64,000 nt of DNA from Desulfofustis sp. PB-SRB1 (lineage in GTDB: Bacteria; Desulfobacterota; Desulfobulbia; Desulfobulbales; Desulfocapsaceae), in contig JAEQMT010000023.1 in NCBI GenBank assembly GCA_016722945.1, positions 124,001 through 188,000 on the forward strand, given 5' to 3'. Position numbers and translations under genes: made by a program. Shown in pieces: positions 50,540 through 64,000 of this stretch (position 1 is its first letter; each line of letters opens with the position of its first letter). The notes below the pieces were generated by a model. It made no database searches. It was not told the origin of the DNA and saw only the letters and a program-made list of their open reading frames with translations.

Positions 50540-50926
50540 ATGAAACAGACTTACAACACCTATTCACCTGTCTCACCATACCGGGTGCGGCAGCCGGTCA
50601 TCGGCGCGAAATTCCGCCAGCGTACCCGGCGATGGCGGGCTCTCGAAATACCGGGCGGGACTGCCCTGTGGTCGGCACTGGCGAGGCGCATAGTGCTGAT
50701 CGGTGCGGTGCTGATCGGAGTCAGTGTGTGCCTTAATATGATTGCCCGGAACAGTGGTCGGTTAATCGACGATCTTGAATCTGCCAGGTATGAGCTCAAA
50801 GACCGGCAGATCGGACTGGCGATAGAGCGCCGGGCACTGGCCTCCGAACAGCGAATTCGCGGTGATGCCATACGTTACCTGGCACTGATGGATGCGCGCG
50901 AGGATCAGGTCATTTCCCTGCGGTAG
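50540..50926 (+). CDS. ftsL: FtsL-like division protein
   Basis: 128 aa with a basic cytoplasmic part (to about 45), one membrane segment (RIVLIGAVLIGVSVCLNMIA) and a periplasmic coiled coil (LIDDLESARYELKDRQIGLA ... IERRALASEQRI). Sequence similarity is weak, as usual for FtsL; position between rsmH and the PBP gene plus the one-TM/coiled-coil layout supports the call. FtsL normally bridges FtsQ/FtsB and the FtsI-FtsW pair. Confidence 0.8.
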   Translation: MKQTYNTYSPVSPYRVRQPVIGAKFRQRTRRWRALEIPGGTALWSALARRIVLIGAVLIGVSVCLNMIARNSGRLIDDLESARYELKDRQIGLAIERRALASEQRIRGDAIRYLALMDAREDQVISLR

Positions 50927-50934
50927 CAAAGAGC

Positions 50935-52803
50935 ATGGACAAGCGGTCCCGTCTCCGCGGCCAGGGGGCTCGAAGGCGGCGGCTGCTGATCATCATCATG
51001 GGCGGTCTGCTGGCCGCCCTTTTTTTATGGCTGGGCCAGGATCGTCTCTCTCTGTTCTTCCAGTGGGCCGTGACCGGGCTGGGGCTCAGTGATGAGGATG
51101 GCTCATCTGCCGCGCGGCTGGAGCGCGGCATTATCTACGACCGTAATTTCAAGGAGCTGGCGCTCACCTACGAGCGGGTCTCGGTCTATGCCAATATTCG
51201 TGAAATCAACGACCTAGCCGGCACCGTAACGAGGATGGCGGCAATTCTTGAGCGACCTTCAGACGAAATCTCCGAACGTTTGTCCGGCAATGCTCCGCGG
51301 GTATGGCTGGCAAGAGATATCAGCCAGGAGCAGGAGGAGTTGATCGGCGGCGAGGGGTTTCGCGGTATCTATCTGCATCGTGAATATGTCCGTACCTATC
51401 CTCAGAACACAAGTGGTGCCCACCTTGTCGGCTACGCCGAAAACAACAGCGGTCTGGCCGGCATCGAGCACTATCTCAATGAAATCGACAACCGATATCG
51501 CCTCACCGATGTGGAGCGGGGCGGCTATCCACTGATCAGCGAGGGGCGGCCGGGGGTGAACGGCAATCATCTCATCCTGACCCTTGATCTGAAAATCCAG
51601 AACATAGCAGAGAGATTTCTGGCAACCATGGAGCGCGGATCAGCAACCAGTAAGGCCGGAGTGATGGTTATCGAGCCGCAATCCGGCGCCATTGTCGGTT
51701 ACGCCCAGAATCCTTCTTTTGATCCCAATGAATTTCATCGCTATGGTCAATGGGTATTCAACGACATATTTCTGAGCCCGCTCAGCATACCCCGCCCACT
51801 GTATGACTTTCTGCACCATGTCTTCGCTCTGTCTGCCGCGGATGAGCAAGGGGCTCTGCCGCCATGGAGTATCGCTGCCGGGGGGGGGGAGCAGAGCCCT
51901 CCCGTCACATGGTGGGATCGTCTCGGTGGTGCTCGCCCCTTGATCCCGGATTTTGGTGTCATGGCGCCGGCAGCGGGTGCCCCGGCGCCTGCACGGCACA
52001 ATGGCACCGGCATACCAGAGGATGAGAAGACAGTACCGGCCCTCTCACCAGTGCAGCTGGTGACGGCCCTGACCAGGGTACTCAATGGCGGTGATGCCAT
52101 AGAGGTGCATGCCGCTGATCGCTTTGTTGCACGGATCAACCAAAGAGAATATCTTCTCGCCGAACTGAGCCCGGGCTCTGAGGGCGCGGCGGTTTCAGCC
52201 GCGGTATCGGAGGAGGCGCACCACCTCTTTACCGCCCTGGGTACGCCGGGGCCGTTGCAGGCGGTAAATCTATCCACCACATCATATTCCTCCGGATGGG
52301 AAAAGGGCTATCAGGCCGTCTGGCGTCATCGGGTGATATTTTCCGTCTTGCCCGGGGCGCACCCTGAGCTGATTTTCATGGTGGTGATCAGCGAACCCGG
52401 TTTCTCAGTGACGACAATGTCTGATCCGGTGGCCCAATTGCAGACGATTTTGGCGCCGATCATCGGTTTGCAGCGGGTGATGAAAAATGTTGCCGATGTT
52501 GTTGCACCACGGCAACTGGAAGAGGTAAACTTGGCAGGCAGTAGGGCGGACCGTCTCACCGATACCATAGCACCACCGGAATCACCATCAGGGCAGGTAT
52601 TCTCTATGCCCCTATTGGTGGATATGAGTCTGCGCAAGAGTCTTCGCAGCCTGCGCGGTATGGACGTGGAACTGGTGGTCTATGGGACCGGACGGGTGGT
52701 GAGGCAGGAGCCGGCGCCGGGAACGCGGCTTGAGGCCGGGGCAACAATTGAGCTCTATCTTGAACGGGATCAGGTGGAGCGGGTTCTGCGGACAGAGCAA
52801 TAA
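50935..52803 (+). CDS. FtsI-position PBP-like protein with PASTA domain; active-site motifs lost
   Basis: 622 aa. One membrane segment (RLLIIIMGGLLAALFLWLG, 20-40) and the PBP dimerisation domain (RGIIYDRNFKELALTYERVS, YLNEIDNRY) are followed by a transpeptidase-like domain (LILTLDLKIQNIAERFLATM ... AGVMVIEPQSGAIVGYAQNP). In FtsI the next block is GSTFKPF with the catalytic Ser and Lys; here it is LSIPRPLYDF, so SxxK has become SxxR. No SxN triad is visible, and where KTGTA belongs the protein reads STTSYS before GWEKGYQAVW. The C-terminal 60 residues are a PASTA-like domain (MPLLVDMSLRKSLRSLRGMD). It is therefore probably a non-catalytic scaffold in the ftsI slot. Confidence 0.85.
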   Translation: MDKRSRLRGQGARRRRLLIIIMGGLLAALFLWLGQDRLSLFFQWAVTGLGLSDEDGSSAARLERGIIYDRNFKELALTYERVSVYANIREINDLAGTVTRMAAILERPSDEISERLSGNAPRVWLARDISQEQEELIGGEGFRGIYLHREYVRTYPQNTSGAHLVGYAENNSGLAGIEHYLNEIDNRYRLTDVERGGYPLISEGRPGVNGNHLILTLDLKIQNIAERFLATMERGSATSKAGVMVIEPQSGAIVGYAQNPSFDPNEFHRYGQWVFNDIFLSPLSIPRPLYDFLHHVFALSAADEQGALPPWSIAAGGGEQSPPVTWWDRLGGARPLIPDFGVMAPAAGAPAPARHNGTGIPEDEKTVPALSPVQLVTALTRVLNGGDAIEVHAADRFVARINQREYLLAELSPGSEGAAVSAAVSEEAHHLFTALGTPGPLQAVNLSTTSYSSGWEKGYQAVWRHRVIFSVLPGAHPELIFMVVISEPGFSVTTMSDPVAQLQTILAPIIGLQRVMKNVADVVAPRQLEEVNLAGSRADRLTDTIAPPESPSGQVFSMPLLVDMSLRKSLRSLRGMDVELVVYGTGRVVRQEPAPGTRLEAGATIELYLERDQVERVLRTEQ

Positions 52804-52962: not shown

Positions 52963-55900
52963 ATGACGGAAAAACCAGAAAAAACAAGGGATTGCGCCGC
53001 CGTGAACCCGGCGGATCTGCTCGCCTTGCGGGCGCGGCGCCCGGCGGATTATCCTTTTATCAGTGAGTTGTCGCCCATCCGGGCGATTTGTGCCGATTCC
53101 CGTCGTGTCCAGCCCGGTGATCTCTTTGTAGCCGTTCGCGGGCAGCGGGTCGATGGCCACCAATTCATTGACGATGCCATTGCCGCCGGTGCCCAGCTGG
53201 TGGTCGCCGAAGATGATACCGCCGTGTCGGAGACCGCCGCCGCTGCCATGATCATCGTGGAGAACAGCCGGGATGCGCTCGGCCTGCTGGCCGCCGCCTT
53301 TCACAACCATCCTCAGCGGGAGTTGACCACCATCGGTATTACCGGCACCAACGGCAAGACCACCTGCAGTTATCTGCTGGAACACGCCCTTATGAAAAAG
53401 GGGGTGCGGGTGGGGGTAATCGGTACGGTGGAGTACCGATACCGCGGCAGAGATGGTACACGGGTCAGCCGGCCGGCAGTCCGTACCACGCCGGAGCCGC
53501 TTGTACTCTATGGTTTGCTTAGGGAAATGGCCGATGCGGGGGTGACTCATCTGATCATGGAGGTCTCTTCCCATGCCCTTGCCCAGCAGCGGATCGGGCC
53601 GCTGCGTTTTGATTACGGACTGTTCACCAACCTCAGTCAGGACCATCTGGATTACCACTCTGATCTTGACGACTATTTTCAGGCCAAGGCCCTGCTTTTT
53701 GACACCCATCTCAAAGATGACGGCTGCGCCGTTATCTGCCGCCCCCATGACGATTCGCACAGATGGAGCAAACAATTGGTGGCTCTCTGCGAGCAGCGCC
53801 ATATCGATGTGGTCACCTGTGGCCCGGGCCCATCCGAAAATCTGCGCCTCATCTCATCGAGCACCGATTCCCATGGGCTTACCCTCACCGTGGTGGATAG
53901 TGAGAAAAGTCGAGGATCGGTCCGGGCGCCGTTGATCGGCAATTTCAACCTGGCCAATGTACAACTCGTGCTGACCACTCTCACCGCCATGGGATACAGC
54001 CTTGATGAGGCATGTTCTCTGCTGGAAGGCGCCGCCGGTGCGCCGGGAAGAATGGAGCCGGTATCCTTGCCCGGCTCTGGAGATGCCCGGCCGACCGTAC
54101 TGGTGGACTACGCCCACACCCCCGATGCCCTGAGTAAGGCATTGATCGCGGCGCGGGATCTGACCAACGGGACATTGTTCGTGGTCTGCGGCTGCGGCGG
54201 CGACCGTGACCGGGCGAAACGGTCCATCATGGGGGCGGCGGCCGCCCGCCTTGCCGATGTGGTTATTATTACCGATGACAATCCGCGCACCGAAGAGCCG
54301 TCACTCATTCGGCGGCAGATGCTCGGCGGGGTGAGCGAGGCGGGAGTGTCCATCTATTCACCCGACTGGTTGACAACGCGGGCCGAAGGCGAGACCGGAT
54401 GCGTTGAAATCGCCGGCCGGGCGGCGGCCATCGCGGCGGCCGTACATGGCGCAAAAGAAGGAGATATCGTGCTGATCGCCGGCAAGGGTCATGAGCGCTA
54501 CCAGCAACTGAGAGGTGAAACCATATTTTTTGATGACGCACTCTGGGCCCGGCAAAGCGTTCTGAGCTGGAACCAGACAACCGTTGCCGAGGCTGCCGGC
54601 GGACGAGTCATTAACAAGGTGCGACCGGTTTTCTTCAAGGCTATCTGTACCGATTCCCGCCGGCTCAGTCCGGGTGATCTCTTCGTCGCCCTGCGCGGTG
54701 AATCTTTTGACGGGCATGAGTTTCTCGCCCAGGCGGTTCTGAACGGGGCGGCGGGTCTGCTCGTGGAAGAGAGCAGCCGGTTGCCCGCCACTGAGATCCC
54801 CGTCATTGTGGTTGGCGATACTCTTCATGCCCTGGGGGATCTGGCCAACTATCGACGACGGCTGGTGGCCCGGATGAGCGGCCCCGTTGTCGTCGGGATA
54901 ACCGGCAGTTGCGGAAAAACTACGGTAAAAGAGATGACCGCGGCGATCTTTGCCCGCCGCTGGCCGGATCAGCCGGACAGGCCACCCGGCCGGGTGTTGA
55001 AAACCAGCGGCAACTTCAACAACCTGGTCGGGTTGCCGCTTTCCCTGCTGCCCATTGGTGCGCACCATCGGGCCGCGGTTCTGGAAATGGGGATGAACGA
55101 GGCTGGTGAAATCGCCCGGCTCACCAGGATTGCCGAGCCTGATATTTGTTGTATCGTCAACGTCCGTCCGGCTCATCTGGAGAAGCTGGGCTCAGTTGCG
55201 GCGGTGGCCCGGGCCAAGGCTGAGCTTTTTACCAACAGTGGAAGCGATGCCATCCATATCGTCAATTGTGATGATGATCAGGTGTTTGGCCTGGCGGAGG
55301 GTCGCGTGCGGCAACAGATCGGTTTTGCGGTGACCAAAAAGGGGATCGAACGGGGCGCCCTGGTGTATGGAACCCACTGGCAACCACTTGGTGAAAGCGG
55401 CGGGCGTTTTGTGCTTACCTGCGGTGATGAATCAACGGAAGTAGAACTCAAAGTGAGTGGTCGGCACAATATGGCCAATGGCTGTGCCGCCGCCGCTATT
55501 GCCAGGGCGGCGGGGATCGATCCGGTGACCATTGCGGCCGGCTTGTCCGATTTTCGCAGTCCGGCCAATCGGCTGCGGATCTGTCGCACCAGTAGTGGGA
55601 TCAACGTGCTCAATGATAGCTATAATGCCAATCCTGCCTCCATGGAGGCAGGGCTGCTTACCCTAGCCGAGATTGCCGGTAAACGGGCCAGGAGCGGCCT
55701 GCTCGGCGATATGCTCGAGCTTGGCGATCACGCCGCTGCCCTGCATGAGCAGGTGGGGCGTCACGCCGCGAACCATCTCGACTATCTCGCCTGCGTCGGT
55801 GAGTTTGCCGGCGCCATCCGCATGGGCGCCATCGGCGCCGGCATGGAAGCCGGCCGGATAACCGTGCTGGGTAAAAAGCAAGACGCCGAGGCCTGGCTTG

Positions 55901-56010
55901 CCCGCCTTGTCGACGAAGGCAGCCTGAGCGCCGGTGACTGGCTCCTGATCAAGGCATCCCGGGGGATCGGCCTGGAAACGGTAGTCGATCAATTGTGTGA
56001 ACGTGAATAA
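52963..56010 (+). CDS. murE-murF: MurE-MurF fusion: UDP-MurNAc-tripeptide synthetase / D-Ala-D-Ala ligase
   Basis: 1015 aa holding two complete Mur ligases. Residues 1-525 are MurE: GITGTNGKTTCSYLLEHALM (P-loop), EVSSHALAQQRI, and ITDDNPRTEEPS with the DNPR motif that marks meso-diaminopimelate as the added amino acid. Residues about 535-1015 are MurF: AICTDSRRLSPGDLFVALRG, GITGSCGKTTVKEMTAAIFA, EMGMNEAGEIARLTRIAEPD and LNDSYNANPASMEAGL. Each half begins with its own D-S-R-x-x-x-P-G-D-L-F-V-A UMP-binding domain. No stop or internal start splits them. The two steps are consecutive in peptidoglycan precursor synthesis, so fusion may channel the tripeptide. Confidence 0.95.
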   Translation: MTEKPEKTRDCAAVNPADLLALRARRPADYPFISELSPIRAICADSRRVQPGDLFVAVRGQRVDGHQFIDDAIAAGAQLVVAEDDTAVSETAAAAMIIVENSRDALGLLAAAFHNHPQRELTTIGITGTNGKTTCSYLLEHALMKKGVRVGVIGTVEYRYRGRDGTRVSRPAVRTTPEPLVLYGLLREMADAGVTHLIMEVSSHALAQQRIGPLRFDYGLFTNLSQDHLDYHSDLDDYFQAKALLFDTHLKDDGCAVICRPHDDSHRWSKQLVALCEQRHIDVVTCGPGPSENLRLISSSTDSHGLTLTVVDSEKSRGSVRAPLIGNFNLANVQLVLTTLTAMGYSLDEACSLLEGAAGAPGRMEPVSLPGSGDARPTVLVDYAHTPDALSKALIAARDLTNGTLFVVCGCGGDRDRAKRSIMGAAAARLADVVIITDDNPRTEEPSLIRRQMLGGVSEAGVSIYSPDWLTTRAEGETGCVEIAGRAAAIAAAVHGAKEGDIVLIAGKGHERYQQLRGETIFFDDALWARQSVLSWNQTTVAEAAGGRVINKVRPVFFKAICTDSRRLSPGDLFVALRGESFDGHEFLAQAVLNGAAGLLVEESSRLPATEIPVIVVGDTLHALGDLANYRRRLVARMSGPVVVGITGSCGKTTVKEMTAAIFARRWPDQPDRPPGRVLKTSGNFNNLVGLPLSLLPIGAHHRAAVLEMGMNEAGEIARLTRIAEPDICCIVNVRPAHLEKLGSVAAVARAKAELFTNSGSDAIHIVNCDDDQVFGLAEGRVRQQIGFAVTKKGIERGALVYGTHWQPLGESGGRFVLTCGDESTEVELKVSGRHNMANGCAAAAIARAAGIDPVTIAAGLSDFRSPANRLRICRTSSGINVLNDSYNANPASMEAGLLTLAEIAGKRARSGLLGDMLELGDHAAALHEQVGRHAANHLDYLACVGEFAGAIRMGAIGAGMEAGRITVLGKKQDAEAWLARLVDEGSLSAGDWLLIKASRGIGLETVVDQLCERE

Positions 56011-56026
56011 TTATTTATAACAGGCC

Positions 56027-57106
56027 ATGTTCTATCACCTGCTCTTTCCCCTGCATGAGCTGTTCAGCGGGTTCAACGTCTTTCGCTATATCACCTTCCG
56101 CAGTATCGGCGGGGCGATTACCGCCTTTTTCATCGTGCTCGTCCTGGGCCCCTGGTTCATTGGTAAAATGCAGCAGTTGCAGGTTGGCCAGGTCATTCGC
56201 ACCGACGGTCCGCGGAGCCATCTGAGCAAAAAAGGGGTACCCACCATGGGGGGGATGCTCATTGTGTTCGCCCTGCTCAGCGCCACATTTCTCTGGGCCC
56301 GCATCGACAATGGCTACGTCTGGCTGATCATGGCGGCAACCCTTTTTTTCGGCGCCATCGGCGCCCTGGATGATTATCGCAAGATATCGAGGCAACACAG
56401 CGGCGGTCTCAGTGCCCGTGCCAAACTTGCCCTGCAGTGTGTCGGCGCCCTGGCGGTGGGAATGTATATGTATGTGCAGCCCGGTTTTGACGGAGCCCTG
56501 TCCGTTCCCTTTTTGAAAAACGTTCGGCCCGATCTCGGCTTGCTGTATATCGTCTTTGCCATGGTGGTAATTGTCGGCGCCTCCAACGCGGTCAACCTCA
56601 CCGACGGTCTCGATGGACTGGCCACCGGGCCGACGGTGGTATCGGCGGCGGTCTATGTGATCTTTTCCTACATTGCCGGCAATATCGTCATTGCCCAATA
56701 CCTGCAGGTGCCCTACGTTGTCGACAGCGGTGAGTTAAGCGTGTTCTGCGCCGCCATGGTGGGCGCCTGTCTCGGTTTTCTCTGGTTTAACGCCTATCCC
56801 GCCCAGGTATTTATGGGGGATGTCGGCTCTCTTGCCATCGGTGGCGGTCTCGGCACCGTGGCCATCATCATCAAACAGGAGATGCTGCTCGCCATTGTCG
56901 GCGGTATTTTCGTGGCCGAGGCGGTTTCGGTGATGCTGCAGGTGGGGTATTTCAAGCTCAGCAAGGGCAAACGCATATTTCTCATGGCGCCGTTTCATCA
57001 TCATTTTGAAAAACAGGGCATGCACGAGACCAAGGTGGTGGTGCGGTTCTGGATTGTCGCCATCATCCTGGGATTTGTCGCCATGGCAACCCTGAAACTT
57101 CGCTGA
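56027..57106 (+). CDS. mraY: Phospho-N-acetylmuramoyl-pentapeptide transferase MraY
   Basis: 359 aa, about ten membrane segments. Transfers the MurNAc-pentapeptide to undecaprenyl phosphate (lipid I). IRTDGPRSHLSKKGVPTMGG, GALDDYRKI (DD motif), NAVNLTDGLDGLATGPT and MAPFHHHFEKQGMHETKVV (HHH) are invariant family motifs. The stop overlaps the murD start. Confidence 0.97.
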   Translation: MFYHLLFPLHELFSGFNVFRYITFRSIGGAITAFFIVLVLGPWFIGKMQQLQVGQVIRTDGPRSHLSKKGVPTMGGMLIVFALLSATFLWARIDNGYVWLIMAATLFFGAIGALDDYRKISRQHSGGLSARAKLALQCVGALAVGMYMYVQPGFDGALSVPFLKNVRPDLGLLYIVFAMVVIVGASNAVNLTDGLDGLATGPTVVSAAVYVIFSYIAGNIVIAQYLQVPYVVDSGELSVFCAAMVGACLGFLWFNAYPAQVFMGDVGSLAIGGGLGTVAIIIKQEMLLAIVGGIFVAEAVSVMLQVGYFKLSKGKRIFLMAPFHHHFEKQGMHETKVVVRFWIVAIILGFVAMATLKLR

Positions 57107-58506
57107 TGACTGCACCGATCACTCTTTATTCCGGGATGACCGTGGGCATGGTGGGTTTTGGCCGGGCAAACCGGTCTTTGGCCCGTTATCTTGCCGGGTG
57201 CGGCGTCCGTCTACTGGTATCTGAGAAAACCGCTGAGACGGCCCTGAGCCCCGAGCAGCTTGCCTGTCTGGCCGACTGCGAGGCGCGCTTTGAGGGCGGC
57301 GGTCACCGCACCGCTTTTTTACAAGATGCTGAGCTTATCGTGGTGAGCCCCGGTGTTGATCCGCGCCATCCGACCCTGCAGGCGGCACGAGCCGGCGGCG
57401 CTCTGCTATGCGGTGAGCTGGCCATTGCCGCCGGTCGGTTTGAGGCCCCGGTGATTGCGGTAACCGGCACCAACGGTAAAACCACGGTGACTGAGCTGAT
57501 CGGCGAACTGCTGGCCGGCGAAGGCTATCGGGTTTTCGTGGGCGGCAACATCGGCACCCCGGTGGGCGAGTATCTTGCCGCCCCGTCGGGCTATGATTTC
57601 GTCGTGCTGGAGGTCTCCAGTTTCCAGCTTGAAACGGGCGGGGAATTTAGTGCCGATGTCGGTGTGCTGCTCAACCTCTCGCCGGACCACCTTGACCGGC
57701 ATGGCTCCATGGCCGCCTATACCGCCGCCAAGATGCGGCTGTTCAGCACGCCTCACTTTTCCGGGCGGGCGGTGATCAACGGCGATGACGAGATGATCGC
57801 ATCCTGTAATCCACTGCTCAAAGGATATCGTCCCCACTATTTCGGCACTTCGCCGCACTGCGCCGCGCAGGTTGATAAGAGCTCCGTCACAGTGGGTTGG
57901 AATGGCCGCCTGGTTCGTTTTGATCTTACCGGCTCAAGTTTGGATACCCTCTTCGGGGCCGCCAACTGCGCCGCATCATTGCTGGCGGTATCCCCGTTCT
58001 GTAGCGATGCGGATGGGGCGGCACAGCGGATTAAAGCGTTTCAGACCGGTGCGCATCGATTGCAGCGGGTCGCCGTGATTGACGGGGTGAGCTACATCAA
58101 CGATTCCAAGGCCACCAACACCGGCGCCGTCCGTGCCGCCCTATACGAGGTGGGGGGCGAGGTGGGGGGCAGGGTGCTGCTGCTGGCCGGCGGTAGTGAC
58201 AAGGGAGACGATTACCGTGTGCTGCGCGAGCCGGTACGAAAATATGTCAGCCAGGCGCTGTTGTTGGGCGAGTCGGCGCCGCAGCTTGGTCGCGCTCTGG
58301 ACGATGTCACCACCTGCACTTACCACGACAACCTTACGGCGGCGGTAAAGAGTGCGGCGGCGGTGGCGCGGCCCGGTGACACGGTGCTGCTGTCGCCGGC
58401 CTGTGCCAGTTTTGATATGTTTGCCGACTATACCAGACGCGGAGACGCGTTTATGGAATCGGTGCACCGGTTATCCGCGCAGGTGAATAACAAAACCAAT
58501 GGATAA
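57106..58506 (+). CDS. murD: UDP-MurNAc-L-alanine--D-glutamate ligase MurD
   Basis: 466 aa. GMVGFGRANRSLARYLAGCG (N-terminal Rossmann domain), VTGTNGKTTVTELIGELLAG (ATP loop), LEVSSFQLETGGEFSADVGV, LLNLSPDHLDRHGSMAAYTA and INDSKATNTGAVRAAL are the expected motifs. The start overlaps mraY by one base and the stop overlaps murG by 8 bp, leaving no room for ftsW, which normally follows murD. Confidence 0.96.
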   Translation: MTAPITLYSGMTVGMVGFGRANRSLARYLAGCGVRLLVSEKTAETALSPEQLACLADCEARFEGGGHRTAFLQDAELIVVSPGVDPRHPTLQAARAGGALLCGELAIAAGRFEAPVIAVTGTNGKTTVTELIGELLAGEGYRVFVGGNIGTPVGEYLAAPSGYDFVVLEVSSFQLETGGEFSADVGVLLNLSPDHLDRHGSMAAYTAAKMRLFSTPHFSGRAVINGDDEMIASCNPLLKGYRPHYFGTSPHCAAQVDKSSVTVGWNGRLVRFDLTGSSLDTLFGAANCAASLLAVSPFCSDADGAAQRIKAFQTGAHRLQRVAVIDGVSYINDSKATNTGAVRAALYEVGGEVGGRVLLLAGGSDKGDDYRVLREPVRKYVSQALLLGESAPQLGRALDDVTTCTYHDNLTAAVKSAAAVARPGDTVLLSPACASFDMFADYTRRGDAFMESVHRLSAQVNNKTNG

Positions 58507-59611
58507 AACTCGCGATTCCAGCAGACCTTTTCGGTTGCTGCTCACCGGTGGCGGCACCGGCGGCCATCTCTTTCCGGCGGTGGCCGCCGCCGAGGCGATG
58601 CGGGAGAGATATCCGGACAGCGCCATTCTTTTTGTCGGAACAAAACGTCTGCTTGACCGGCAAAGTCTCACGCAGGCAGGTTTTCAGGTGAAGACCATAC
58701 TGAGTTTCGGCCTCAAGGGTAAACGGCTGCTGGAGCTGATCAAGGCATGTCTGGTGCTGCCCGTTGCATTGGTTCAGGCCGTTATCGTGCTTGTTCGGTT
58801 TCGGCCCGATGTGGTGCTGGGTGTAGGCGGGTACGTCACCGGGCCGGTGGTGGCGACGGCGTGGCTGTTGCGTATTCCCACCGTCATTCATGAGCAGAAC
58901 TCCATTCCGGGTCTTGCCAACCGATTGCTTGGCCGGCTGGCCCGCCGCGTCTGTCTCTCCATTCCGGTGAGCAACCGCTTTTTTGCCGAAGAAAAAACCG
59001 TTCTGACCGGCAATCCGGTGCGCCGGGAGGTATGTGAACTTGCCGGTCATCTAAAAGAGACCAATGATGCATTCACCGTCCTGGTGCTGGGCGGCAGCCA
59101 GGGTGCGCATGGTGTCAACGAATTGATGGTATCGCTTTTTTCCGCCTCAAGTGGTTTGCCGGCGGGGATCCGGATCATCCATCAAACCGGCGCCCGCGAT
59201 GCGGATTGGGTGGCGCAACGGTATCATGCGGCCGGTGTCAACGCCGAGGTGGCTGCGTTTTTTCATGATATGGCAACCATCTATACAAAGGGTGACGTAG
59301 CGGTATCGCGGGCCGGCGCCACAACGCTGGCGGAGCTGGCGGTGGTGGGCATGCCGGCCCTGCTGATCCCCTATCCCCATGCCGCCGATGATCATCAGCG
59401 AGAAAACGGCAACTGGTATGTGGCGGGTGGCGGCGCCCTCATGTTTGCTCAAGATCAGGCCGGCGCCGCGAGAATCGGCGCCGAGATCACCGATCTGGCA
59501 CACAACCCGGAGCGCAGGCAGGCCATGGCCAAAGCAATGGCCGCGCGTGGTACGACCGAGGCCGCCACCCGGCTGGTGGATGTATGTCTTGAAGCAGCGG
59601 ATGGTAGATAA
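58499..59611 (+). CDS. murG: UDP-GlcNAc transferase MurG
   Basis: 370 aa peripheral membrane glycosyltransferase that completes lipid II. LLTGGGTGGHLFPAVAAAEA (G-loop 1), VVLGVGGYVTGPVVATAWLL, IHEQNSIPGLANRLLGRLAR, VLGGSQGAHGVNELM and SRAGATTLAELAVVGMPALL (UDP-GlcNAc site), PYPHAADDHQ all present. It begins inside the end of murD and its stop overlaps the murC start. Confidence 0.97.
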   Translation: MDKTRDSSRPFRLLLTGGGTGGHLFPAVAAAEAMRERYPDSAILFVGTKRLLDRQSLTQAGFQVKTILSFGLKGKRLLELIKACLVLPVALVQAVIVLVRFRPDVVLGVGGYVTGPVVATAWLLRIPTVIHEQNSIPGLANRLLGRLARRVCLSIPVSNRFFAEEKTVLTGNPVRREVCELAGHLKETNDAFTVLVLGGSQGAHGVNELMVSLFSASSGLPAGIRIIHQTGARDADWVAQRYHAAGVNAEVAAFFHDMATIYTKGDVAVSRAGATTLAELAVVGMPALLIPYPHAADDHQRENGNWYVAGGGALMFAQDQAGAARIGAEITDLAHNPERRQAMAKAMAARGTTEAATRLVDVCLEAADGR

Positions 59612-60990: not shown

Positions 60991-61928
60991 TCTCCGCCAT
61001 GCTTGACAGGTCGCTGTTTCGTACTGAATTAACCCAGTTGCTGGGTGGCCGGGTGCGGTTTGATCTCACCCTGGCCCGCCTTACCACCATGAAGATCGGC
61101 GGGCCGGTGGGCGCCCTGATATTTGCCGAACACGTAGAAGAATGTCACCAGGTCGTCACTTTTCTTGAAAAAAACCGGACCCCATGGCGGTTGATCGGCC
61201 GGGGCTCCAACGTCCTTGCCCCTGATGAGGGCTTTGACGGGGCATTGCTGGCCCTTGGCGATGGCTTCAAAACCATCGAAAAGAGTACTGATTTGTCTGC
61301 CGACAAGGTGCTGGTCCGGGCCGGCGCCGGGCTCAGTCTCACCCGGGTGGCGGACTGGTGTGCCGCTCGTGGGCTTGCCGGTCTGGAGTTCGCCGCCGGA
61401 ATACCCGGCTGTGTTGGCGCGGCGGTGCTGAAAAACGCCGGCGCCTGGGGAAGCGAGATGGGGGCGGTGGTGGCATCCGTCACCGTGATGAACGGGCGGG
61501 AAGAACGTACCCTGCCACGATCCTGTTTGCATTTTTCCTACCGATCCCTGTGGATGGCACCCGCTCTTCCTGCTCCTCTCATAGTGGCGGCGGTGGAGTT
61601 TGAGCTGCGCCGCTCGTCCACGGTGGCGATTCGTGAACAGATGGCATATTATCATCAACTGCGCCGTGAAAAACAGCCCTTGAATCAGCCCAGCGCCGGT
61701 TCTTTCTTTAAAAATCCGCCGGGTCTTTTTGCCGCCGAGTTGATTGAGTCGAGCGGTCTCAAGGGACTGCGGGTAGGCGATGCGCAGGTGTCGACCAGAC
61801 ATGCCAACTTCTTTGTCAACCGGGGAAGGGCAACGGCACGCCAGATGATTGCGCTGATGCGGGAGGTCCAGCAGAAAGTGGAAAAACAGCATGGGGTTAT
61901 GCTGGAACCAGAGGTGGAAGTGTGGTGA
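60987..61928 (+). CDS. murB: UDP-N-acetylenolpyruvoylglucosamine reductase MurB
   Basis: 313 aa FAD enzyme. LTTMKIGGPVGALIFAEHVE, IGRGSNVLAPDEGFDGALLA (FAD site), FAAGIPGCVGAAVLKNAGAW and GSFFKNPPGLFAAELIESSG (catalytic Ser in GSFFKNP) plus HANFFVNRG. GTG start overlapping the murC stop is given; an ATG at 60999 is the alternative. Type II by its shorter C-terminus. Confidence 0.95.
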   Translation: MISAMLDRSLFRTELTQLLGGRVRFDLTLARLTTMKIGGPVGALIFAEHVEECHQVVTFLEKNRTPWRLIGRGSNVLAPDEGFDGALLALGDGFKTIEKSTDLSADKVLVRAGAGLSLTRVADWCAARGLAGLEFAAGIPGCVGAAVLKNAGAWGSEMGAVVASVTVMNGREERTLPRSCLHFSYRSLWMAPALPAPLIVAAVEFELRRSSTVAIREQMAYYHQLRREKQPLNQPSAGSFFKNPPGLFAAELIESSGLKGLRVGDAQVSTRHANFFVNRGRATARQMIALMREVQQKVEKQHGVMLEPEVEVW

Positions 61929-62932
61929 AGATAATCCGTACCCTGTTCATAAAACTTGGGTTTCTCCCCAGGAAAAAAGCTTTGAGTGGCGGCATCGACG
62001 CCGGGCGCTCCCGGTTTTCCTCACCGCCGAACCAGCCTAAATCGACAAACAAAACCGTACTGAGAAAGATCAATGAGTGGTGGCTGACCAGAAAGCCGGC
62101 TAAAAAGAGCGCCCAGATTGAAATTAAAAGAGGTATCTTTTCTCCTCGTACCCTCTGGCTCCTCTGGCTGGGTACCGCGGGGATGGTTGGTTTCTGGCTG
62201 TTTTCCAGCATCGATGGTTCTTCCCTTGTGCAGCGGGCGCTGGCCCATATCGATCTGTTTAAAATCGTGGTGGTCAGCGTTGAGGGAGAAACTCACAGTG
62301 ATGCCGAACAGATTCGGGCAAGCTCCGGGATCATGGTCAGCGAAAGTATGTTCTCGGTTTCTTCCGAAGATGTCGAGTACGCGGTCACCTCGGCGAACCC
62401 ATGGATAGCGGACGTTGAGATTATCAGGCGCTGGCCCGGCGAGATCATCATCGAGGTGGATGAATATGAGCCATATGCCCTGATGACCAGCGGCGCCGGT
62501 GGAGGAGGACGCCTCTTCTATGTGGATCGGCGCGGCCATCCCTTTGCCCCGGTGGTAGCGGGGGACGATCTTGATTTTCCGGTGATCACCGGCATTGAAC
62601 TCGAGCCGGACACTGCCGGCACCCAGGAACAACTCAGCGAACCCCTGCGGTTTCTGAACATGCTTGGCGGCAACGACCCCAACTTACCGGCCCAGTCGGT
62701 GTCGGAGATCCACCTTGACGCTGAGCACGGTATGGTGGTTCATCTGGTGGAATACCCGTTTCCCATTTTCCTGGGAACACAGATCACCAGAGAGAAATAC
62801 CATCGACTTCGCAAGGTTCTCGAGGTTCTTTACAAGCCGCGCAGACATGGCATGAACATCGGCACGGTGGACTATATCAGTATGGACTATCTGCCGGATA
62901 AAGTTATTATCAGCACAAACGAATCAGGATAA
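61922..62932 (+). CDS. ftsQ: Cell division protein FtsQ
   Basis: 336 aa bitopic protein. A basic cytoplasmic region of about 75 residues, one membrane segment (LWLLWLGTAGMVGFWLFSSI), the POTRA domain (FKIVVVSVEGETHSDAEQIR ... NPWIADVEIIRRWPGEIIIE) and the FtsQ beta domain (GRLFYVDRRGHPFAPVVAGD). GTG start overlapping the murB stop; a second GTG directly follows. It normally recruits FtsB/FtsL and through them FtsI/FtsW. Confidence 0.93.
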   Translation: MVKIIRTLFIKLGFLPRKKALSGGIDAGRSRFSSPPNQPKSTNKTVLRKINEWWLTRKPAKKSAQIEIKRGIFSPRTLWLLWLGTAGMVGFWLFSSIDGSSLVQRALAHIDLFKIVVVSVEGETHSDAEQIRASSGIMVSESMFSVSSEDVEYAVTSANPWIADVEIIRRWPGEIIIEVDEYEPYALMTSGAGGGGRLFYVDRRGHPFAPVVAGDDLDFPVITGIELEPDTAGTQEQLSEPLRFLNMLGGNDPNLPAQSVSEIHLDAEHGMVVHLVEYPFPIFLGTQITREKYHRLRKVLEVLYKPRRHGMNIGTVDYISMDYLPDKVIISTNESG

Positions 62933-62936
62933 TTGC

Positions 62937-64000
62937 ATGATGGCCGAAATATCACCCAGCGCTCACGAAGAGCAGGAAGAAGGTCCCCGCGAGATTCGTG
63001 GTGATCTGGTAGTCGGACTCGATATCGGCACCACCAAGGTGTGTTGCGTGGTGGGTGAGGCGTTTGACGACGGCATCGATATCATCGGGGTGGGTATCAC
63101 ACCGTCACTGGGCATTCGTAAAGGCGTGGTGGTCAATATCGAAAGTACCGTGGCCTCCATCCGCAGAGCCGTCAAGATGGCCGAGGATGTCGCCGGTTGC
63201 GATCTGGAATCGGTGTATGTGGGCATTGCCGGCAATCACATCAAGGGGTTCACCAGTCCCGGTATCCTCGCCATCAACGGCCGCGAGATCAAACAGGCCG
63301 ATGTCCAGGAGGTAATTGATGCGGCCCGCACCGTGAAGATATCGGAAAATCAACGAATCATTCACGTTCTGCCGCAGGAATACATGGTGGATGACCACAC
63401 CGGCATTCAAAACCCCCTGGGGATGACCGGGGTGCGGCTGGTCACCAATGTGCATATCGTCACCGCCGATATCGGCGCCGTCCATAATCTGATTACCTGC
63501 TGCAACAAGGCGGGGCTCGAGGTGACCGACATGGTGCTGGAATCGGTGGCCTCGGCCAAGGCGGTTCTCAGTCAGGATGAAATGGATCTGGGTGTTGTTC
63601 TGGTGGATATCGGCGGCGGCACCACCGATATTGCGGTGTTCTGCGACGGCACAATCCGGCAGACCGGCGAGATCGGCCTGGGCGGCCACAACCTTACCAA
63701 CGATCTCTCCATCGGCCTGCGCACCCCGCTGGGCGAGGCGGAACGGCTCAAGGAAGATTTCGGTGGGGCGCTGGCGGCGGTGATCAAGCCAAATCATGTG
63801 GTGGATGTGCCCTCGGTGGGCAGCCGCGAACCGCGCCGCGTCACCCAGAAGATTCTGGTGGACATCATCGAGGCACGGATGGTGGAGATCCTCGAGATGG
63901 TGGACCGCGAACTGGCTGTTTCCGGCCAGAAAAAACGGCTCAATGCCGGGGTGGTGATCACCGGCGGCACCGCCTTGTTGCCCAATCTTGGCGATCTGGC
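62937..64000 (+). CDS. ftsA: Cell division protein FtsA (5' part, cut by the window end)
   Basis: Open from ATG at 62937 (MMAEISPSAHEEQEEGPREI) to the window end, 354 residues visible. Actin-like ATPase that ties FtsZ to the membrane. VVGLDIGTTKVCCVVGEAFD (phosphate 1), SVYVGIAGNHIKGFTSPGIL (SHS2 domain), VVLVDIGGGTTDIAVFCDGT (phosphate 2) and GVVITGGTALLPNLGDLA (adenosine motif). An N-terminal extension of about 20 acidic residues precedes the usual start. The C-terminal membrane helix lies outside the window. Confidence 0.96.
   Translation, partial: MMAEISPSAHEEQEEGPREIRGDLVVGLDIGTTKVCCVVGEAFDDGIDIIGVGITPSLGIRKGVVVNIESTVASIRRAVKMAEDVAGCDLESVYVGIAGNHIKGFTSPGILAINGREIKQADVQEVIDAARTVKISENQRIIHVLPQEYMVDDHTGIQNPLGMTGVRLVTNVHIVTADIGAVHNLITCCNKAGLEVTDMVLESVASAKAVLSQDEMDLGVVLVDIGGGTTDIAVFCDGTIRQTGEIGLGGHNLTNDLSIGLRTPLGEAERLKEDFGGALAAVIKPNHVVDVPSVGSREPRRVTQKILVDIIEARMVEILEMVDRELAVSGQKKRLNAGVVITGGTALLPNLGDL

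Follow-up and report, generated by a model that had tools for sequence, protein, structure and literature searches.

An FtsI-position protein without catalytic motifs in the division clusters of Desulfobulbales that lack FtsW

In bacterial cell division the FtsW-FtsI pair normally works with FtsQ, FtsL and FtsB (FtsQLB). The pair has been described as universally conserved for the synthesis of septal wall (PMC10693644, cited, like the other papers here, from excerpts). In C. difficile the septum is made by the class A PBP1, and the class B PBP3, which is present at the divisome in a complex with PBP1, promotes septation without catalytic activity of its own (PMC12539705). S. aureus PBP1 is a class B PBP with PASTA domains and a role in the septal plate that extends beyond catalysis; formation of the plate can require both the PASTA domains and the protein as such (PMC9426605). 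The genes zipA, ftsW and ftsN are reported to be absent from four Desulfobulbaceae, cable bacteria included (PMC7873302, 2021), in a paper where FtsI is recruited to the division plane and where the attribution of septal synthesis to FtsI activity is a statement about E. coli. In the Thermodesulfobacteria ftsW has been lost from the cluster (PMC8871954).

The DNA analyzed here, which we call the window, is a stretch of 64,000 nucleotides from Desulfofustis sp. PB-SRB1. Its division cluster runs in the order rsmH, an FtsL-sized protein, the FtsI-position gene, a murE-murF fusion, mraY, murD, murG, murC, murB, ftsQ and ftsA. The names come from sequence and position, with FtsQ alone assigned by Pfam, a confirmation that covers the window only. 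The parts around the FtsI-position gene are:

50540..50926 (+): FtsL candidate, from its position between rsmH and ftsI, its size and an apparent membrane segment seen by eye
57106..59611 (+): murD-murG junction, the expected place of ftsW, where the two genes overlap by 8 bases
61922..62932 (+): FtsQ, from Pfam POTRA_1 and FtsQ_DivIB_C
62937..63998 (+): FtsA, cut by the end of the window, from position and by eye

The FtsL candidate has no Pfam match, and is weakly similar to the protein in the same slot of L009, L012 and L014 (53, 22 and 23 bits). A protein of FtsL size lies ahead of ftsI in 13 of the 15 clusters in which this slot was read; there is none at L223, and L081 is ambiguous, with one such protein in its list of open reading frames. 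As murD (57106-58506) and murG (58499-59611) overlap, there is no room for ftsW in its usual slot. A SEDS gene lies between mraY/murD and murG/murC in 19 of 19 outgroup clusters, L190 of family f28 being set aside. The fused murE and murF (52963-56010) form a single open reading frame of 1015 aa; the fusion is also present in L009, L012, L014, L071, L080 and L085-L087, and is not found in every member of the order.

The FtsI-position protein itself comprises the following elements:

50935..52803 (+): FtsI-position protein of 622 aa, a class B PBP homologue without catalytic motifs, from Pfam, alignment and model
51121..51447 (+): PBP dimerisation (pedestal) domain, residues 63-171, PF03717, E 1e-9, 39.4 bits against a cut-off of 24.4
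51640..52479 (+): transpeptidase-like domain, residues about 236-515, fold predicted, active site lost
51796..51807 (+): lost SxxK site, P288-L-Y-D291, from alignment
51895..51903 (+): lost SxN site, S321-P-P, from alignment that is less certain here
52279..52287 (+): lost KTG site, T449-S-Y, from alignment that is less certain in this more diverged stretch
52606..52764 (+): PASTA domain, residues 558-610, PF03793, E 2.5e-7

The sequence-only reading had described a dead PBP with dimerisation, transpeptidase-like and PASTA parts. The dimerisation and PASTA domains are both over their Pfam cut-offs. The transpeptidase-like part is recovered as a predicted fold, but its Pfam Transpeptidase match extends over only 28 residues and at 20.8 bits falls below the cut-off of 22.1. 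The positions of the motifs were read from an alignment with canonical FtsI and PBP2. SxxK had been read as altered to SxxR in the sequence LSIPR; the motif is indeed gone, but LSIPR begins four residues ahead of the true site and is out of register with it. Alignment with FtsI homologues places P288-x-x-D291 there, and the Ser-Lys pair is absent. The failure to see an SxN motif was sound, the aligned position being S321-P-P, and STTSYS had been correctly placed as the KTG strand, with T449-S-Y at the position of KTG.

How general is the loss of the motifs? The close named relatives of the protein come from Desulfofustis glycolicus (40% identity), Desulfoprunum, Desulfocapsa and other Desulfobulbaceae, and through them we take the order to be Desulfobulbales. 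A profile of 18 relatives, which we term pseudo-FtsI, matches 144 of 145 genomes of the order (PBP2 can match it weakly too). From 90 of these 144 genomes we aligned 90 proteins, made up of 30 best matches and 60 regions covering families, together with 27 FtsI proteins from the phylum outgroup and PBP2. The 90 are all distinct sequences and represent 14 families; contig ends truncate three of them, and L085 is broken into two frames. Loci from named records (L009-L031, with many identical proteins) and L128-L129 were kept out of this alignment. The aligned triad is present in none of the 90 order proteins, compared with 24 of the 27 from the outgroup. Taken singly, the catalytic serine is found in two of the 90, the lysine in five and the lysine of KTG in eight; SxxK occurs in the right stretch in two and a KTG-like sequence in two others, and the two never occur together. 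S-x-N/D lies near the aligned place in 17, where the alignment is uncertain. Within the outgroup SxxK is present in 25 of 27 and KTG in 24 of 27, the exceptions being L135 and L136 of family f28, which is FtsW-less too, and the truncated L142. For a fifteenth family, f11, a partial protein was read, and SxxK is lost from it as well.

The alignment is anchored by the stretch around the serine, which in the outgroup reads like NRAVTDxFEPGSTFKxF and has as its parallel in family f14 the sequence NRAVVDPVFPGGIGRLF. In the KTG and SxN stretches divergence is greater and the alignment less certain. We also searched without alignment for S..K, S.N/D and K/H/R-S/T-G at canonical spacing, since a placement of the motifs elsewhere in the chain would have saved the enzyme; only chance-like matches were found in the order. 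There were nine among the 90 proteins, all starting at residues 5-139, and we read them as chance because they begin before the transpeptidase-like part. The same search matches 26 of the 27 outgroup proteins, of which two are dead f28 proteins whose matches start too early (residue 187). Thus it cannot by itself separate live from dead, while the aligned positions do.

The sequence-only reading had raised the question of whether relatives share the loss, and the triad is absent from 90 of 90 aligned order proteins. Genomes assembled as a single contig are among those without the motifs (for example G005, G040, G047, G105 and G127). The same state in all 90 proteins, single-contig genomes included, is not the product of chance or assembly error, and the latter, which had been named as a possible refutation, is contradicted. 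Judged from the alignment, the loss of the motifs is far older and wider than the source genome.

The source assembly, in which the window spans C47:124001-188000, comprises 4.69 Mb and is 97.6% complete. A search with PF01098 gives a single SEDS protein, encoded at C47:262570-263616 on the same contig as the window. This is RodA, scoring 418 bits against the NCBIfam RodA cut-off of 336.7 and 304 against the FtsW cut-off of 337.5, and its gene comes after mreB, mreC, mreD and PBP2. The matches to PF00905 are PBP2 and a pair of class A PBPs (614 and 1139 aa), all three with motifs intact by eye; the 622-aa FtsI-position protein is not among them. With these two profiles no substitute FtsI or FtsW was found at any other place in the genome, there being no FtsW and PBP2 being the only class B protein matched. 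By the same profiles there is no canonical FtsW/FtsI pair in the source genome or the order genomes.

A draw of 193 genomes from the class, all of which fell in the Desulfobulbales, has exactly one SEDS protein in 178, none in 10 and more in five (G047, where the gene is in two pieces, G176, G186, G188 and G197). The rodA gene of the single-contig G047 lies in two frames at L164:7656-8788, through either a sequencing error or a genuine interruption. In the draw from the phylum outside the order (190 genomes, counted by hand) two or more SEDS proteins are present in 145, one in 42 and none in three. Exactly one PF00905 match above 200 bits is found in 141 of 145 order genomes and none in G064, G072, G104 and G141; the next best match in order genomes scores 143 bits. 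G072, G104 and G141 have neither a SEDS protein nor such a match, though they are 88-99% complete, and this could reflect either sequence missing between contigs at the mre-pbp2-rodA cluster or a genuine additional loss. Outside the order, L159 (G217, family f29, 4.9 Mb) has FtsW and an intact FtsI in its cluster; no second SEDS protein was found in this genome, which thus has no RodA.

A match to FtsB (PF04977) is present in every one of 58 relatives, in 56 of them over the cut-off, and each of the 58 has at least two PF00912 glycosyltransferases. Several FtsW-less genomes outside the order have a single PF00912 match (G216, G252, G223, G228 and G263). In the 1139-aa class A PBP of the source genome (L007:4657-8076, on C1) the transpeptidase domain is interrupted by a very long insert. 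Most of the 58 relatives have glycosyltransferase frames of more than 1060 aa, and there is none in the two-contig G022, where both matches are shorter. No type of class A PBP is universal, G022 being without the giant type and G020 without the short one. Such a type was also considered as a marker of the FtsW-less group, and was rejected as frames of more than 1000 aa occur in outgroups too.

The state of FtsI follows that of FtsW across the clusters. Among clusters in which both the ftsI and the ftsW slot were readable, FtsI has PGSxxK, SSNI and GKTGT in 20 of 20 that carry a SEDS gene (L172-L189, L191 and L159). In FtsW-less clusters the catalytic triad is found in 0 of 33, of which 14 are in the order (the window, L009, L012, L069-L073, L078, L080-L083 and L085) and 19 outside it (L157, L190, L223-L226, L228-L230 and L232-L241); L222 and L231, where there is no readable murD-murG junction, are excluded from the 33. 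The proposal that the missing motifs and the missing ftsW are one coherent change, made from the window alone, is well matched by this partition. Among the 19, G382 (L233) carries another SEDS gene at a different place in its genome, so that FtsW is absent from the cluster, perhaps not altogether. Among the single-SEDS genomes outside the order, where the cluster was read in 23 of 42, G217, G221 and G297 keep FtsW in the cluster.

In the FtsW-less lineages outside the order the protein in the ftsI slot forms a graded series of lengths, with 643 aa in f28, 535-563 in f66/f72/f76/f87, 451-455 in f75, 410 in f40, 324-332 in f39 and 248-345 in f35/f65. At one end, the f28 protein still scores 101.8 bits with the transpeptidase profile and its motifs are gone, as if the death of its FtsI were recent. 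In f39 and f40 the members tested show a pedestal match below the cut-off and none to PASTA. Proteins of f35 and f65 weakly match the C-terminal PASTA end of the canonical FtsI profile and have no recognisable pedestal, and the f65 protein tested has no Pfam match. The surviving parts therefore differ between f39/f40 and f35/f65, and no single conserved interface explains all the FtsW-less lineages. In f35/f65 the ftsW slot between murD and murG is occupied by a protein of 261-264 aa with several apparent membrane segments by eye:

L229:5088-5879 (-): ftsW-slot protein
L230:5110-5892 (-): ftsW-slot protein
L232:4695-5483 (-): ftsW-slot protein
L233:7751-8533 (+): ftsW-slot protein

The two of these that were tested have no Pfam match. 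A remnant of FtsW was considered and set aside, the match to the SEDS profile being unconvincing (probability 0.7 of 100).

A tree of five cluster proteins requires at least four changes of FtsW state, three of which are forced by well-supported branches. Placing all FtsW-less lineages in one clade gives a p-AU of 0.045, a borderline rejection, and this group was defined after the data were seen; a single FtsW-less clade without f35/f65 is not rejected (p-AU 0.31). Family f28 (G216, G252, G285 and G312), FtsW-less and with a dead FtsI, groups with an FtsW-bearing genome (SH-aLRT 99 and 97, and 86 in a larger tree), and f28 with the order as one clade is not rejected (p-AU 0.49). On these p-AU results we favour, without regarding it as proven, one deep loss of FtsW and another in f35/f65.

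Purifying selection acts on the dead domain. dN/dS was calculated by the method of Nei and Gojobori for within-family pairs of at least 60% identity, keeping 51 of 67 after saturated pairs were dropped. The median is 0.18 for the N-terminal part (51 pairs), 0.21 for the transpeptidase-like part (51) and 0.18 for the C-terminal part (50); the start of murE gives a rough value of 0.20 for comparison (64 pairs, 15 of 16 f1 genomes). A value near 0.2 in the transpeptidase-like part shows that the domain is maintained. We also scored the columns that are invariant in a canonical set of 25 proteins (24 from the outgroup plus L033, leaving out the dead L135 and L136 and the truncated L142). In the 90 order members the 34 such columns ahead of residue 236 are kept at a mean of 70%, the 64 of the transpeptidase scaffold at 32% and the 11 of the active site at 19%. 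With only 32% of scaffold columns kept, much of the transpeptidase domain has been remodelled or relaxed.

An AlphaFold model built with 18 sequences is of moderate confidence (mean pLDDT 67, pTM 0.59). It resembles class B PBPs over both domains, and these are at the top of the matches listed, among which Z ranges from 27.7 to 31.0. The values are 31.0 over 409 residues for SpoVD, 29.0 for S. aureus PBP1, and 28.7 over 440 residues, including part of the N-terminal helix, for FtsI of the FtsWIQBL complex 8bh1; the model also aligns with FtsI of 8p1u. Modelling, which the sequence-only reading had suggested as a check, predicts the transpeptidase fold, and by alignment the active-site motifs are absent from it.

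From the conservation, the selection and the presence of FtsB and FtsQ we infer a structural role. Pseudo-FtsI is probably a motif-less, membrane-anchored periplasmic scaffold of the divisome, kept after the loss of FtsW. FtsW has been lost from the lineage, depriving FtsI of its paired polymerase, and FtsI has lost its transpeptidase site while staying in the division cluster. Pseudo-FtsI would most likely dock on FtsQ-FtsL-FtsB through its transmembrane helix and pedestal, its PASTA domain may bind the wall, and it could recruit or activate the real septal synthase; for another synthase to be brought in, a hold on FtsQLB might still be required. Guided by the precedents of the C. difficile divisome and S. 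aureus PBP1, we propose that it may link FtsQLB to a class A PBP as a scaffold, the chief alternative client being RodA-PBP2. Against the scaffold reading count the remodelling of the transpeptidase domain, the different parts that survive in other FtsW-less lineages, the lack of a class A PBP type common to all relatives and the moderate confidence of the model. As in C. difficile, a class A PBP is a candidate septal synthase, and the class B PBP homologue a candidate for a non-catalytic septal role. We slightly favour the class A PBPs over RodA-PBP2 as the synthase, an assignment with about an even chance of being right.

A single RodA-PBP2 pair might alternatively make both side wall and septum, tied to FtsQLB by a pseudo-FtsI that replaces FtsW-FtsI. 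This is possible, though we hold it tentatively. It is the sole SEDS-class B pair found in the genome, and in nine of nine loci around RodA from FtsW-less genomes (L158 and L160-L167) RodA has the HTDF segment and PBP2 has SxxK and KTG; pseudo-FtsI moreover keeps the fold that is the partner of FtsW in the divisome core complex 8bh1. Yet the pair sits with the elongation genes mreB and mreC in the source genome and the nine loci, and the sole essential SEDS-class B pair of C. difficile mediates elongation (PMC10693644). Pseudo-FtsI might even be out of the divisome with another job, such as sensing the wall through PASTA, whose residues are kept in the order where the catalytic ones are not, and some lineages retain little else that is recognisable. 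The position of the gene in the order, after rsmH and followed by murE wherever the sequence extends that far, makes this unlikely, as does the pedestal being the better-kept part.

An enzyme with an unusual active site would account for purifying selection on a transpeptidase-like domain of preserved predicted fold. We regard it as very improbable, as the catalytic columns vary widely over the 90 proteins and the only residues invariant within this region in the 18 relatives are G251, P260, N265, P310, N384, P473 and P477. None of these could act as a nucleophile or base, there is no conserved alternative nucleophile, and an invariant set made up solely of glycine, proline and asparagine argues against a new catalytic site. 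That the gene is a decaying pseudogene or an assembly error is scarcely credible. All three motifs are lost and L085, one of the 90, is split in two frames, but 86 of the 90 order proteins are uninterrupted frames of at least 550 aa and the single-contig genomes have the same state; dN/dS of about 0.2 in every part rules out a pseudogene.

For the phylum as a whole we lean towards a joint reading, in which the catalytic site of FtsI survives only alongside FtsW, FtsW disappeared once deep and probably again in f35/f65, and FtsI each time became a dead scaffold that shrank in several lineages. If this is true, septation in the whole order (about 200 species genomes sampled) and in further lineages proceeds without a dedicated septal SEDS-class B pair, and the structural role of FtsI is separable from its catalysis and more durable. 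A whole order without FtsW, where FtsI is retained only without its catalytic residues, is a natural experiment that splits structure from catalysis, and the graded series shows how much of FtsI a division machine continues to retain, and in which parts. What enzyme is able to build a septum becomes testable in cultured, harmless anaerobes, and to label such proteins transpeptidases from their position in the cluster would misstate their activity. The genomes suggest that cells of this sulfur-cycling group divide with a different wall-building enzyme and keep FtsI as a scaffold; cable bacteria belong to the group by their Desulfobulbaceae/Desulfobulbia placement only (PMC7873302).

The reported absences of ftsW concern the same missing gene, and the excerpts of PMC7873302 and PMC8871954 leave the inactivity of FtsI unmentioned. 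Within the open-access literature, as available in excerpts, we found no report of an inactive FtsI in these groups. What we take to be new is that FtsI is dead, that this is tied to the loss of FtsW throughout the order and beyond it, that selection maintains the protein and that it is reduced in a graded way. Compared with FtsI (PBP3) of the FtsWIQLB core, pseudo-FtsI has the same dcw position, N-terminal helix, pedestal and predicted transpeptidase fold, but lacks SxxK, SxN and KTG and has no FtsW partner. S. aureus has FtsW. Its PBP1 differs from pseudo-FtsI in that transpeptidase activity is present and essential (PMC9426605). The C. difficile divisome is alike in having no functional FtsW/FtsI pair (PMC12539705, PMC10693644), and differs in having the dcw-encoded SpoVE-SpoVD for sporulation. 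For C. difficile PBP3 it is only the need for catalytic activity that has been shown to be absent, whereas here the catalytic residues themselves are gone, across an order and from the protein that occupies the ftsI slot.
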